NCBI RefSeq assembly: GCF_012275445.1
Contig: NZ_JAAZQK010000006.1
Location: forward strand, 386,825 to 450,824
DNA from: Rhizobacter sp. SG703
Lineage (GTDB): Bacteria > Pseudomonadota > Gammaproteobacteria > Burkholderiales > Burkholderiaceae_C
Direction: 5' to 3'
DNA: 64,000 nt
Made by a program: the position numbers and the translations under genes. The notes beneath the pieces were generated by a model. That model made no database searches, was not told where the DNA came from, and saw nothing but the letters and a program-made list of their open reading frames with translations. The first letter of the stretch is position 1. Each line of letters starts with the position of its first letter. This document shows, one piece after another, positions 54,047-60,614 of the stretch.

Positions 54047-54255
54047 AAGAGTGCGGCTGCCGGTCCAGAACCAGATCCGCCGCCGATCGTCAACAACTGT
54101 CATCTGTTCACGACATCGATGCGATGACGTCCTGACCCGTCTTGTTGCCTTCACGGCTTTCCCGTCTAATCCGCCGGCTCGCGTTTCAGCAGTCTCCCGA
54201 AGAAGTACCTCGGGCGCGATGCACAAGTGCATTGAGGTCGCCGAGGAGTTCATTG

Positions 54256-57200
54256 ATGACGAAGCAAGCGGGCCTTCACCGCCTGGGTGGAGTGCTGTGC
54301 GTTGGGTGGCTGCGCGCGTGGTTGCGGCAACTGCGGAGCATGACCTGCATGGCGTTGTTGTGCCTGCTGCCCTGCATGGCCCAAGCCGAGGGGGAGGTCA
54401 ATGCGATCCCCGTGCCGGAGATGGTGGCGGTGGAGTTCGACGTCGCTCAGCTCTTCGGTGCAGCCACCATGGCCAACTGCGTCGAGTTCATGGTGACGTT
54501 CGGGCGCGGCTCGTCGTGCAAGGGCCTGCTGCGATATTTGCCGGCCGGCGTCGATGACGGGGCGTACATCGGCACCAATCACGGCAACGGCACCTACTAC
54601 ACCGTCCTTTGTGCGGACTGCAGGGACTACGTCTTCGGCTGGGGCACGACCGTCTGGTGGACGGGACGCTGGATCGACGCCCGGGCCTACAGCTGCCCGG
54701 CGAATGCCACCGGGGTGCCGACCTCGTCGACCTGCACCTGCAACGACGGCTATACGCCCGACAGCACCGCGACCCAGTGCGTGCCCGCAACCGATGTGCC
54801 GTACGCATCGGCCCCACCGCCGCCCGAGTGCGAGGTGTGCAAGGGAAACCCGATCTACCCGCTGCGCGGGGTCAAGCGCGAGGAGGTGGACACGGGTCTC
54901 GCGATTGGCAACACGACGCTGCGCTTCACCTACGACAACGCGAGCCGGATCCCGACCGCATCGGGGGCGCTGACCGACATCGGCGCGGTGGAGAACCGCG
55001 CCGGCGTGATGGGCAGCCTGCAGTGGGTCAGCAACTTGCACCGGCAGGTGACCCTGTTCACGATCGGCGCCGGTTCAACCCCCGGGCTGCCGGTGCCCAC
55101 CGTCTTCCCGCGCGGCAACGGCGTCGTCAAGACGATGACGAGCACCGACGGCGGCCCGCGGGTGGGGGAGCCGGGGAACAAGGACCGCTTCGTGCAGCTG
55201 CCCGGCGGGGAGTACGTGTACACCGACAGCGGCAGCAACGTGCAGGAGACGTACACCGCGTCCAGCGGCACGGGCGTGCTGACGACGATGGCCTGGGCCG
55301 ACGGCACGCGCATCGACTTCACGTACGGCAGCACCAGCGGCCTGCGCACGCTGAGCCAGGTGAGCGACAACCGGGGCCGCCGCCTGAGCTTCGGCTACAC
55401 GCTGTCGACCAGCGGCGTGCCGCGGGTGAGCAGCATCACCGATGCGACGGGCCAGGTCACGACGCTGAGCCACGACAGCCGCAACAACCTGGTGGGCATC
55501 ACCTGGGCGGATGGCAAGACCCAGGGCTTCGTGTACGAGAACACCGAGCTGCCGTGGGCGCTGACGGGCGTGGTCGACGAGCGCGGGCTGCGCTACTCGA
55601 CCTTCGGCTACGACGCCCAGGGCCGGGCGATCAGCACCGAGCATGCGGGCGGGGTGGACAAGTACACGGTGAGCTACACGACGCCGCCGAGCATCCAGGT
55701 GACGAAGCAGACGTTCGGCGACGCCGTGGCGCGCTTCCACACCTGGAACCTGCCGCAGGGCATGGTGATGACCGAGCCGAGCGGGCAGACGACGACGTGG
55801 AGCGCGATCAGCCTGAACGGCAAGAACTACTTCAGCGCGCAGGGGCAGCAGCCGGGGGCGGGCAGCCTGGCCAGCAGCCGAAGCCAGACCTACGACGCGA
55901 ACGGCAACATCGCGAGCCGGGACGACTTCAACGGCACGCGCCGCTGCGACCTGAACGACCTGACGCGCAACCTGCAGACGGTGAGCGTCGCCTCGCTGGG
56001 CACGAGCCAGGACTGCGCGGCGGTCACGGCCACCAACGCCACGCTGCCGGCCGGGGCGCTGAAGACCAGCACGCAGTGGCACCCGGACTGGAGCTTGCCG
56101 ACGAAGGTGGCAGCGCCTGGCCGGATGACGACCTACGTTTACCACGGCCAGCCCGATCCGTTCAATGCCAACGCCAACGCGGTCGCGAGCTGCGCACCGA
56201 CCGCGGCAACGCTGCTGGACGGCCAGCCGATCGCCGCGCTGTGCAAGCAGGTGACGCAGGCGACGACGGATGCCGACGGGCACCTCGGCTTCGCTGCCAC
56301 GCGGCAGGCCGGCACCACCGACACGGTGCAGACCTGGACGTACGACGTGGACGGTCGGGTGCTGACGGCCAGCACGGCGTCCGGCACCAGCGATTACCTG
56401 CGCGCAGCGCAGACCACGGCCGATCACACCCAGGGCGACCTGCTGAGCATCACGTCGCCGAGCGGCGAGGTGACGCGCTTCGACCGCCACGACAGGTACG
56501 GTCAGGTGCTGCAGAGCACCAGCCCGGACGGCACCGTCACGACTTACACCTACGACCTGCGCCAGCGCATGCTCAGCCGCACGGTGGGCGACAAGACCAC
56601 GGCATACGCGTATGACACGGCTGGCCTGCTGACGAAGGTGACGCTGCCCGACGGCAGCTGGATCGGCTACGAGTACGACGATGCCCACCGCGTGGTGGCG
56701 GTGACCGACAAGAAGGGCAACCGCATCGACTACGTGCTGGACAACGCCGGCAACCGCACCGACCAGCGGGTCAAGGACCCGGCGGGCGAGTTGACGCAGG
56801 TCCTGAACCGGCTGATGGACGCGCTCGGGCGTGAGCAGCAGGCGGGCGTGACCGATGCGGTGCCGGCCTCGCAGGTCGTCCCGTCGCTGCCCACGTCGCC
56901 GCTGCCGCTGGAGCGCTATGAGTACGACGCGCAGGGCAACCGCACGAAGATCACCCGCGGGGCGGGCACGCTGAACCTCGTCACGCGGCTGAGCTACGAC
57001 GCGCTGGAGCGCGTGAAGGACACGACCGACCCGAAGAACGGCACGACGCGCTTCGCGTACGACAGCGGCAGCCGCACGACGCAGGTCACCGACCCGAGGA
57101 ACCTCGCGACGCAGTACCCGCGCAACGGCTTCGGCGATGCGACGCAGGTGATCAGCCCGGACACCGGCACCGAGAACCTGACCTACGACGCCTCTCGCAA

Positions 57201-59115
57201 CCTGAAGACGCGCACCGACAGCCGCGGCGTGCTGACAACGTACGGCTACGACGCGAGCGACCGGCTGACCGGGGCGGTGGCGACGAAGAGCGGGCAGCCG
57301 AGCGAGACGGTGAGCCTGACCTACAGCCAGACCGGCGCGGGCTTCAGCCACGGCGTGGGGCGGCTGACGAGCAGCAGCTACCCGGGCGGCTCGGCGCAGT
57401 ACGCCTACGACGACCAGGGCGAGATCACGAGCGACCTGCAGCGCGTGGACGCGGTGGCCGGCGGCAATGCCACGCAACTCACGCAGACGGTGGGCTATAG
57501 CTACACGCTGGGCAACCTGACGGGGGTGAGCTACCCGTCAGGGCGGCAACTGGGGCTGAGCTGGGTCGATGGCGAAGTGACTGGGCTCACGCTGGGCGGC
57601 AACGCGCTCGTCACGCAGATCGAGTGGACGCCGTTCGCCGGCACCGTGAAACGCTGGCGGTGGGCGATGGCCGGTGGCGAGATCGCGAACGAGCGCTACT
57701 ACGACCTGGCGGGCCGCGCGGTGCGCTACCCGCTGGGCGAGCTGTTGCGCGATGTGCGCTACGACGAGGCGAGCCGCATCGTGAGCTTCACGCACCTGAG
57801 CGCGGACGGCACGGCGCAGCCCGCGCTGGACCAGGCCTTCGGCTACGACGAGAACAGCCGGTTGACCAGCATCACGACGCCCACGGCGAGCTGGGGCATC
57901 GGCTACGACGCCAACGGCAACCGCACGGGCATCAGCCTGAACGGCAGCCTGAGCGCCTACAGCGTGGAGGCGACGAGCAACCGGACCACGAGCATCACGA
58001 ACCCGGCAAGGAGCTTCGGCTACGACAGCGCGGGCAATACGACGACCGACAGCGAGGGCTACACCGCGACGTACAACCTGCGCGGGCAGCTCGCGACGCT
58101 GACGAAGGCCGGGGTGACGACGAGCTACACCTACAACGCGGCGGGGCAGCGGGTGCGCAAGGTGAGCAGCACCGGGGCGCAGAGCACGGTGGTCTTCGCA
58201 TACGACCAGGCCGGGCACGTGCTGGGCGAGTACGACCAGAACGGCGCGGCGCTGCGCGAATACGTGTGGCTGCGCGACACGCCGATGGCGATGTTCACGC
58301 CCGACCCGGCGAACCCCACGGGCGAGCCGCTGGTGTTCTACATCCACACCGACCACCTGAACACGCCGCGCGTGGTGGTGGATCGGCAGAACCGCGTGCG
58401 CTGGCGCTGGCTGGCCGAGCCCTTTGGCACGACCGCACCGGAGACCAACCCGAGCGGGCTGGGGGTCTTTACGCAGAACCTGCGGTTCCCGGGGCAGTAT
58501 GCGGATCAGGAGAGTGGGCTGTTCTACAACTGGAACCGCTACTACGACCAGAAGGGTGGGATTTACACGCAGAGTGATCCAATTGGGTTGACAAGTGGCA
58601 GCTTGTCGACGTACGCATATGTGGATGCAGATCCGCTGAGCTTCGTCGATCCCGGCGGATTGGCGAAGATAAAACTCGGCGGAGAGAACATCACGGTTCA
58701 CAAAAACGACGTTGATCCTTGGCCGAGCAGTCCGCATGGACACATCTATGACAAGAACCACGTTGTCGATGTTGAGGGGAACATTTTCAACAAGAACACA
58801 GGGCAAGTCGTCGGCAAGCTGTCGAAGAAGGAAACGCTTCTCTGGAAGAAGTTCTTGGAGAAGGCCGGGCATTCGGTGAAATGCTTTGCTCCCTTCATAT
58901 TGGTGTATGACGTAATCTCCAAGGGGCCGGGTGCTGCGATTAATGGGGCACTATGGCCTGTGTCTGAGTTGTGGAGTTGTGAAGAGTGCGAGAAGGCAAA
59001 TGCATCTTCAACACCGGCCAGCCAACCACCTATTGAATGGTCTAAAGGACCGAGTGGGCGAGGCACTACAACGCCACCTCCGAGCCTGTTGAAGAAGCAC
59101 TACGAGAATCCATAG
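54256..59115 (+). CDS. Rhs/YD-repeat protein with variable C-terminal toxin-like domain
   Basis: 1619 residues from the ATG with GAGGAG eight bases upstream. N-terminus MTKQAGLHRL... has a long n-region and hydrophobic stretch (SMTCMALLCLLPCMAQA), a Sec-type signal. A Cys-rich segment (residues ~105-200) precedes GNPIYPLRGVKREE. Then many YD repeats (YDANGNIASRD, YDASDRLTGA, YDSAGNTT) and the Rhs core (IHTDHLNTPRVVVDRQNRV, NLRFPGQYADQESGLFYNWN, DPIGL at 1441-1445, DPGGL at 1465-1469). The last ~150 residues are unrelated: PWPSSPHGHIYDKNHVVD, a Lys-rich KLSKKETLLWKKFLEKAG, one hydrophobic stretch and a Pro-rich tail. GC falls near the junction. No PAAR or VgrG domain. Confidence 0.93.
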   Translation: MTKQAGLHRLGGVLCVGWLRAWLRQLRSMTCMALLCLLPCMAQAEGEVNAIPVPEMVAVEFDVAQLFGAATMANCVEFMVTFGRGSSCKGLLRYLPAGVDDGAYIGTNHGNGTYYTVLCADCRDYVFGWGTTVWWTGRWIDARAYSCPANATGVPTSSTCTCNDGYTPDSTATQCVPATDVPYASAPPPPECEVCKGNPIYPLRGVKREEVDTGLAIGNTTLRFTYDNASRIPTASGALTDIGAVENRAGVMGSLQWVSNLHRQVTLFTIGAGSTPGLPVPTVFPRGNGVVKTMTSTDGGPRVGEPGNKDRFVQLPGGEYVYTDSGSNVQETYTASSGTGVLTTMAWADGTRIDFTYGSTSGLRTLSQVSDNRGRRLSFGYTLSTSGVPRVSSITDATGQVTTLSHDSRNNLVGITWADGKTQGFVYENTELPWALTGVVDERGLRYSTFGYDAQGRAISTEHAGGVDKYTVSYTTPPSIQVTKQTFGDAVARFHTWNLPQGMVMTEPSGQTTTWSAISLNGKNYFSAQGQQPGAGSLASSRSQTYDANGNIASRDDFNGTRRCDLNDLTRNLQTVSVASLGTSQDCAAVTATNATLPAGALKTSTQWHPDWSLPTKVAAPGRMTTYVYHGQPDPFNANANAVASCAPTAATLLDGQPIAALCKQVTQATTDADGHLGFAATRQAGTTDTVQTWTYDVDGRVLTASTASGTSDYLRAAQTTADHTQGDLLSITSPSGEVTRFDRHDRYGQVLQSTSPDGTVTTYTYDLRQRMLSRTVGDKTTAYAYDTAGLLTKVTLPDGSWIGYEYDDAHRVVAVTDKKGNRIDYVLDNAGNRTDQRVKDPAGELTQVLNRLMDALGREQQAGVTDAVPASQVVPSLPTSPLPLERYEYDAQGNRTKITRGAGTLNLVTRLSYDALERVKDTTDPKNGTTRFAYDSGSRTTQVTDPRNLATQYPRNGFGDATQVISPDTGTENLTYDASRNLKTRTDSRGVLTTYGYDASDRLTGAVATKSGQPSETVSLTYSQTGAGFSHGVGRLTSSSYPGGSAQYAYDDQGEITSDLQRVDAVAGGNATQLTQTVGYSYTLGNLTGVSYPSGRQLGLSWVDGEVTGLTLGGNALVTQIEWTPFAGTVKRWRWAMAGGEIANERYYDLAGRAVRYPLGELLRDVRYDEASRIVSFTHLSADGTAQPALDQAFGYDENSRLTSITTPTASWGIGYDANGNRTGISLNGSLSAYSVEATSNRTTSITNPARSFGYDSAGNTTTDSEGYTATYNLRGQLATLTKAGVTTSYTYNAAGQRVRKVSSTGAQSTVVFAYDQAGHVLGEYDQNGAALREYVWLRDTPMAMFTPDPANPTGEPLVFYIHTDHLNTPRVVVDRQNRVRWRWLAEPFGTTAPETNPSGLGVFTQNLRFPGQYADQESGLFYNWNRYYDQKGGIYTQSDPIGLTSGSLSTYAYVDADPLSFVDPGGLAKIKLGGENITVHKNDVDPWPSSPHGHIYDKNHVVDVEGNIFNKNTGQVVGKLSKKETLLWKKFLEKAGHSVKCFAPFILVYDVISKGPGAAINGALWPVSELWSCEECEKANASSTPASQPPIEWSKGPSGRGTTTPPPSLLKKHYENP

Positions 59116-59160
59116 CACGAGGGCGCTTCTCGTGATGCTGTTTCCAAGGAGGTAATTGGT

Positions 59161-59535
59161 ATGGTGACGATCCAAGTGCGGCCCGATTTGTCTCGGGTTC
59201 AATTTGAAGAGCTTGCTATGAAATGGGATGCAGCTAGAAACGCTGTGTTGGAGGTCGACTTCCCAGCAAGCGAGAACGATTTGCGCAAGTTCTCTAGTCT
59301 CTTGCTTGAGTTGGCGAATTTGGAGTTGGCGCGTTCAGCTCTGGCTGAGCTTTGCGAGCAACCGAAAGTGCCTCAAGACATCCTGGAAAGAGCGTTCCTG
59401 GAGGGTGGGACTGCATGTCGGGTAGCTATCTGCTTACGCGCGGATCTGTCCACGTCGCTCAAGAACATGTGCACGCACTGCGAAGAGGCGGTGGTGGTCG
59501 AGCACTTCAAGCAGAACCAACAGTCACCAATTTGA
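59161..59535 (+). CDS. hypothetical protein, candidate Rhs immunity protein
   Basis: 124 residues, starting MVTIQVRPDLSRVQFEELA, mostly alpha-helical by appearance, no signal peptide or membrane span, acidic overall in the first half; three Cys in the last third (CRVAICLRAD, MCTHCEE). Perfect AAGGAGG ribosome site at 59146-59152, eight bases before the ATG. Lies 45 bases after the Rhs stop, separated by a 6-bp hairpin (59116-59134). Its DNA is as AT-rich as the Rhs C-terminal region. No family recognised; immunity role is inferred from position, size and composition. Confidence 0.72.
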   Translation: MVTIQVRPDLSRVQFEELAMKWDAARNAVLEVDFPASENDLRKFSSLLLELANLELARSALAELCEQPKVPQDILERAFLEGGTACRVAICLRADLSTSLKNMCTHCEEAVVVEHFKQNQQSPI

Positions 59536-59733
59536 CGACGTAGACGTTGCCCACACTCATGAACGCTTGCTTCGATGGGAGTTTGGTCCGCAAGCAGGCT
59601 TTGCGGCCGCGTTGGCGGCGCAAGTTCGTTCACGCCACCGTCATGGTTTGCCGGTGAGCAGGCGATTGCTGAGCCCCGCATCCCGGCACGCCGTATGCAT
59701 GCCGGTGGGCATCGAACTGAGAGGCAAAGACCG
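59536..59733 (+). other. spacer between candidate immunity gene and IS remnant
   Basis: Contains a readable but startless stretch (frame of 59531) translating as FDDVDVAHTHERLLRWEFGPQAGFAAALAAQV, which looks coding-like and could be a remnant of another small downstream gene or the frameshifted tail of the previous one. Nothing else recognised. Confidence 0.35.
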
Positions 59734-60614
59734 ATGAGCCAACGCAGCTTTGCGAGCGCCGAGTACGCGATGAAGAAGAAGCAGACGAGGCGCGAGAAGT
59801 TTCTGGGCGAGATGGAGCGGATCGTGCCGTGGACGCTGATGGCGGTGATCGAGCCGCTGTACCCGACGAGTGGTCGGGTCGGACGGCAGTTGCCCACGAA
59901 GTCGCGCAATCGATCTGTCGCACGAGTCGGTGCCGGACGCGACGACGCTGCTGAAGTTCAGGCGGCTGCTCAACGACAACAACTGACGCGGGCGCTGTTC
60001 GACGAGATCAACGCGCACCTGGGCGAGAAGGGTCTGCTGATGCGTGCAGGCACCATCGTTGACCCGACCATCGTCGCCGCGCCCGGTTCGACGAAGAACG
60101 AGGACAAGGCAGAGACCCCGAGATGCACCAGGCGAAGAAGGGCAACCAGTGGCACTTCGGGATGAAGGCGCACATCGGGGTGGATGCCGAGTCGGGTCTG
60201 GTGCACTCGCTGGTGGGAACGGCAGCCAACGTCAACGACGTGACGCAGGCCGGAGCACTGCTGCATGGCAAGGAGGGCGTTGCGTTCGGCGATGCGGGCT
60301 ACCGCGGCGTGGGCAAGCGCGCCGAGGCGCAAGGGCCGCAGTGGCACGTGGCGATGCAACCGGGCAAGCGCCGCAAGCTGGACCTCACGCGCAAGTGGGC
60401 GCAGTTGCTGGACAAGGTCGAGCAGTTCAAGGCGAGCGTTCGTGCGAAGGTCGAGCATCCGTTCCACATGATCAAGAACCTGTTCCGCCAGCGGAAGGTT
60501 CGCTACAAGGGGCTGGCGAAGAACGAAGCGCAATTGTTCGCGCTGTTCGGGCTGGCCAACATCGTCATCGCCAAGAGGCGATTGATGGCCCTCCATGCCC
60601 GAGGTGCCTCTTGA
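59734..60614 (+). pseudogene. IS5-family transposase, disrupted
   Basis: Starts as an intact IS5 transposase (MSQRSFASAEYAMKKKQTRR, VPWTLMAVIEPLYP), loses about 45 codons after GRVGRQ, contains a 19-base micro-inversion (59891-59909), then resumes in another frame (DLSHESVPDATTLLKFRRLL), hits TGA at 59984-59986, returns to the first frame (LFDEINAHLGEKGLLMRAGTIVDPTIVAAPGSTKN) and shifts again before MHQAKKGNQWHFGMKAHIGVD. All three DDE segments survive (TIVDPTIV, FGDAGYRGV, VRAKVEHPF) but in different frames. The last part, from 60123, is one open frame. Terminal inverted repeats were not recognised. Confidence 0.9.

Follow-up and report, generated by a model that had tools for sequence, protein, structure and literature searches.

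Polymorphic toxins built on Rhs/YD repeats, as portrayed by Zhang et al. 2012 (PMC3482391) and in a bee-gut survey (PMC8125069), share a core that ends in DPxG, a tail that is swapped behind it, a small adjacent immunity gene and orphan cassettes lying in arrays. Here we describe a locus of this architecture in a stretch of 64,000 nucleotides from Rhizobacter sp. SG703 (contig NZ_JAAZQK010000006.1, positions 386,825 to 450,824), referred to as the window and cited by its own numbering. A sequence-only reading had proposed a toxin/immunity pair at the end of one Rhs gene, with a tail of no nameable toxin class. Our favoured reading is that 58657-59535 is a polymorphic toxin/immunity cassette, which we regard as probable, and that the tail and the small gene behind it form such a pair, which is highly probable. 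This architecture is a known one, to which the toxin and immunity families apparently add new members: unlike in the described systems, neither the window tail nor the small protein fits a family of Pfam, NCBIfam, PADLOC or PHROGs.

A swapped tail behind an Rhs core

The Rhs/YD-repeat protein comprises 1619 residues from its ATG (54256..59115, + strand; an alternative upstream TTG start is possible at 54142) and was identified from its open reading frame (ORF) translation together with Pfam and NCBIfam matches. RHS_repeat (PF05593) matches 12 stretches (1.9e-53), and Rhs_assc_core (TIGR03696) covers residues 1388-1469 (6.9e-20). The latter match ends, like that of NF041261, with DPGGL (residues 1465-1469; 58648..58662, +), so that the protein has the RHS/YD repeats and the Rhs-associated core ending in DPxGx by which Rhs polymorphic toxins are recognised. 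A tail of 150 residues follows in an intact frame, in agreement with the earlier description of a canonical core and an unrelated tail. By eye, the N-terminus resembles a Sec signal peptide. The G+C content falls from 0.688 in the core to 0.515 in the tail and 0.535 in the small gene, and at third positions from 0.935 to 0.599 and 0.629. The sharp drop had first been noticed from hand counts of single lines (40/60 in the core, 25/60 in the tail), which proved exact, and the small gene indeed shares the AT-richer composition.

Using the last 234 residues of the core as a query in 11 genomes of the genus, we found matches in seven. The window's own genome contains nine matched places, two of which are overlapping pieces of one. 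Over the query, identity to the window is 94% for one of these copies, L046, and 93% for another, L050, and both carry other tails and next genes. At the DNA level, identity to both copies per 60-base bin is 0.92-1.00 across 57700-58539, 0.65-0.78 across 58540-58659 and 0.10-0.51 beyond, the last being the background level of a forced alignment. A third copy, L056, likewise breaks at 58660, with lower similarity upstream. Since near-identical cores carry unrelated tails and other next genes, the window tail is a swapped cassette and not a conserved part of the Rhs family as a whole. The Rhs protein would serve as the shell that carries this tail as cargo and delivers it.

The Rhs core copies of this genome (L039, L046, L050, L056, L059, L062, L065, L068) have differing tails and next genes and represent a set of further candidate toxin/immunity pairs; tails were read for the seven of these eight loci with a recognised junction, all except L065. 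The gene after L046 is ankyrin-like by eye, and the tail of L050 contains a HEFRHL motif, which we take to be metallopeptidase-like. In L051, from another genome of the genus, the tail and the following gene of L056 recur with hardly any change.

A tail and a small gene kept together in distant bacteria

Scanning of genome contigs gave 29 candidate stretches, three of which encode relatives of the tail. They come from a metagenome-assembled genome of Methylobacter (L001), one of Rhodocyclales (L002) and Gilliamella sp. Pra-s52 (L003), are 49-56% identical where aligned, and are the single tail match of their respective genomes (3/3). Within the family of the Gilliamella genome, two of 44 genomes matched, namely Gilliamella itself and G862, which provides a fourth relative (L079). 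All four lie behind an Rhs core end or a remnant of one, with the differing junctions DPDGL (read from DNA), DPEGL, DPFGL and, in L079, DVFGL. Homologues of the tail thus occur behind Rhs ends or remnants with different junctions, in line with a check proposed in the sequence-only reading. L001 lies downstream of an Rhs gene end that bears a different tail, L002 is located at a contig end, and L003 closes an array of three toxin tails, its core remnant containing stops. Among the tail homologues found, only that of the window belongs to a complete Rhs gene. The Gilliamella array (L003:260-5738) is followed, as judged by eye, by IS3-like transposase genes on the opposite strand.

The candidate immunity gene (59161..59535, +) has the 124 codons reported before, and the Shine-Dalgarno sequence AAGGAGGT (59146..59153, +), read from the sequence, stands 7 bases before its ATG, just as claimed. 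A homologue of this gene follows the tail in all five Rhs-type loci (window, L001, L002, L003 and L079), at distances of 45, 6, 51, 6 and 0 bases, respectively. Tail homologues without homologues of the small gene would have spoken against a pair, and the five cases are uniformly of the opposite kind.

The homologous small proteins are just 14-24% identical to that of the window, and for this reason we used a leave-one-out profile test. Four small proteins reached 47.2, 77.9, 62.4 and 25.7 bits, compared with at most 12.1 bits in 2000 shuffles each, and the next gene of L079 scored 72.4 bits against 12.3 for its shuffles. In each leave-one-out run against a background of 2488 ORFs, the top 12 rows contained only these loci and L038 (at most 18.4 bits). 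L038, an 890-residue frame with a TPR-like reading, was rejected; it was also the only match besides the own genome when the immunity profile A2 was searched in 340 genomes of the class (2/340). By BLAST alone, the small proteins P0002 and P0008 remained unlinked (E 0.28) and P0006 and P0008 were linked (1.8e-8).

The conserved pair bears directly on the reading that the tail is a degenerate Rhs leftover with an unrelated gene behind it. The C-terminal half of the tail is variable and modelled with low confidence, and a transposase remnant lies downstream, both of which would suit such a leftover. However, the frame is intact in the window and the pair is kept across distant bacteria in 5/5 Rhs-type cases, which makes this reading extremely improbable. 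The arrangement of polymorphic toxin plus immunity gene is thus supported by the swapped tail and the conserved pair, from which we infer toxicity of the one product and protection by the other.

Two further features of this region were noted. The toxin and immunity genes share a reading frame in all five loci, 58657-59535 included, possibly by chance. The transposase remnant (DDE_Tnp_1, 7.1e-29; 60123-60614, +) lies downstream of the immunity gene and appears broken, its N-terminal part (fragment 59575-60165) seemingly standing in another frame as judged by eye.

The small protein is predicted, with a mean predicted local distance difference test (pLDDT) of 85.9, to begin with a beta-alpha-beta unit and to continue as a helical solenoid. 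Many of the 50 solved structures listed for this model are of HEAT/ARM type by title, and the predicted fold may resemble that of Imm-HEAT and other helical-repeat immunity proteins listed in the 2012 survey (PMC3482391). By eye, we saw neither a signal nor a membrane segment. The small protein may be a cytosolic helical-repeat protein that protects the producer by binding directly to the toxin domain.

A compact domain with a conserved polar signature

In the tail (P0001), numbered from the second G of DPGGL, conservation is limited to residues 1-70 or so (58657..58866, +), which form the candidate toxin domain and are kept in L001, L002, L003 and L079 and modelled with block means of 79-94 pLDDT. 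The model is confident and beta-rich, with six strands and one helix, and found no clear match among solved structures. The domain contains the signature H-x-NDVDPW-x-S-x-PHGHIYDK (residues 15-33; 58699..58755, +), whose alignment columns are invariant or nearly so. In the ten rows of the alignment A4, which take in the two uncertain members L010 and L016, D18, D20, S24, H27, H29 and L55 are invariant. Judging from its residues, the signature is probably an active or metal site.

The remainder of the tail is a variable extension with a hydrophobic patch, a Cys pair and a Pro-rich end (58885..59112, +), modelled with pLDDT below 50 at residues 76-131 and 144-151. Among the traits singled out in the sequence-only reading, PHGHIYD thus turned out to be conserved, whereas the hydrophobic patch and the Pro-rich end are not, being absent from L003 and L079. 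This difference is important for the proposal that the tail acts on membranes, as a pore or by depolarisation, through its hydrophobic residues at about 75-100. These residues are modelled at a pLDDT of about 40 and are not conserved, and L003 and L079 lack them and yet keep the immunity gene. Moreover, membrane-acting toxins are usually paired with membrane immunity proteins, while the immunity protein here has no visible membrane helix. Hence, we consider a membrane-acting toxin very improbable.

We favour instead a toxin whose active part would be the compact domain of about 70 residues with its conserved His/Asp cluster. It likely acts in the cytosol of the target bacterium, where it probably functions as a small enzyme. 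A nuclease would be the likeliest kind, a tentative proposal based on the His/Asp cluster.

In the four libraries, the two window proteins gave a single row, DUF6664, with E 0.23 and 12.5 bits where the cut-off is 27. Among the relatives, P0005 gave a weak FosG row (E 0.12, cut-off 240 bits) and P0007 two PHROGs at 0.21; Pfam yielded nothing convincing for the A1 and A2 relatives, nor did NCBIfam for those tried. These scans of relatives covered P0008 in Pfam and NCBIfam only and did not extend to L079. Short motif strings did not occur in the literature searched, and similar motif notations led, in the part of the 2012 survey (PMC3482391) available, to one passage only, on Tox-JAB. The bee-gut survey (PMC8125069) reports 208 representative Rhs tails, 64 of them with known relatives, and its supplementary tables may include the tail from Gilliamella without a name.

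One described family with a likeness to the domain is DUF4160 (PF13711; PMC12724237), also a small domain with a P-x-H-x-H turn. DUF4160/DUF2442 is a proposed type II toxin-antitoxin pair of Thermus, the second ORF of which could not be deleted alone. In favour of our domain being a distant DUF4160 toxin, hhalign places the PH-x-H parts in register. Scored against the family profile, one DUF4160 row reached 8.8 bits (E 6.8e-4 in a set of 9); in the converse comparison, the profile of DUF4160 gave L003 6.3 bits (E 0.0063 in a set of 10). However, the comparison of profiles was not significant (hhalign probability 0.5%, P 0.11), although as a test it is weak, the alignment comprising 9 of 20 fetched DUF4160 loci. 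In Pfam, with the HMMER filters on, PF13711 was matched by no member of A1 at E values of 10 or less, and the partner is here modelled as a helical solenoid. The comparison covers the toxin side of the pair. Taken together, we regard a distant DUF4160 toxin as improbable.

Relatives outside Rhs loci

Members of the domain family were also found in proteins that are not Rhs proteins. The domain forms the C-terminus of a 456-residue protein (L007) and of a 177-residue protein (L014), and occurs in a 190-residue protein that is identical in two viral contigs (L011/L012), in a 116-residue protein of a Cupriavidus taiwanensis plasmid (L009; E 2e-8 from L014) and in a 115-residue protein of a viral contig (L073). 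A profile built from the five Rhs-type cores gave 59.7, 41.8, 43.1, 27.5 and 28.2 bits for L007 (entered as its C-terminal 83 residues), L011, L014, L009 and L073, respectively, compared with at most 11.8 bits for 1000 shuffles each. L010 and L016 gave 15.3 and 12.5 bits, and 36.4 and 23.2 bits with an eight-member profile. We treat these two as leads only because a false positive, L071, also outscores its shuffles (8.8 against 3.8 bits for the best of 1000 with the five cores; 17.3 against 3.9 with eight members), so that shuffles understate the noise.

The family is sparsely distributed. Profile A1 matched two of 398 genomes of the phylum (the own genome and that of L007, a non-Rhs case) and one of 100 relatives (the own genome). 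Profile A3 matched 4/369 genomes of the class (own, L014, L016 and L015), and A4 4/398 genomes (own, that of L007, and those of L071 and L072). L015 was rejected as a short frame with stops, and L071 and L072 (E 3.1e-5 and 4.6e-5) as dehydrogenase-subunit-like proteins with an HGHC stretch; of three other weak matches (H1-H3), H1 was rejected as lying antisense to what by eye is an oxidoreductase-like ORF. The window tail had no match in plasmids, phages or viral contigs, nor had A1 or the L014 domain in viral contigs or the L009 domain in phages. The sole match of the L002 tail in plasmids was the Cupriavidus place (E 0.2).

Beside the family member of L007 stand two tandem genes (L007:39-1387), which we presume to encode SOS-response abasic-site peptidase (SRAP) proteins. 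In L073 (2914-4745), the small family protein lies shortly upstream of an AAA-type ATPase gene.

Among the loci compared, homologues of the immunity gene were seen only at the Rhs-type ones. In flanks of roughly 0.9 to 4 kb around eight non-Rhs loci (L007, L009, L010, L011, L012, L014, L016 and L073), the five-member immunity profile reached at best 6.9 bits, giving 0/8 with an immunity homologue, compared with 131.9-159.1 bits in L001, L002, L003 and L079, which are themselves members of the profile. This absence, together with the C-terminal position of the domain in L007 and L014 and its occurrence in small phage and plasmid proteins, would suit a non-catalytic binding module that was recruited to Rhs tails and is toxic by sequestering its target. 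However, the invariant residues are mostly polar His, Asp and Ser gathered in one loop, which suggests an active or metal site, and we therefore hold a mere binding module to be unlikely. A more far-reaching possibility, somewhat less likely than not, is that the His/Asp domain of about 70 residues represents an undescribed superfamily of effectors in phages, plasmids and chromosomes, with a small fold and a chemistry of its own. Rhs systems would have drawn a toxin from this superfamily and combined it with a solenoid immunity protein dedicated to it.

The tails of Rhs proteins harbour untested activities in great number. The candidate toxin described here is small, at about 70 residues, and combines a sharp signature with a dedicated immunity family and with kin among equally unexplained phage and plasmid proteins. 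Hence, a functional assignment of this candidate toxin could extend to a whole undescribed domain.
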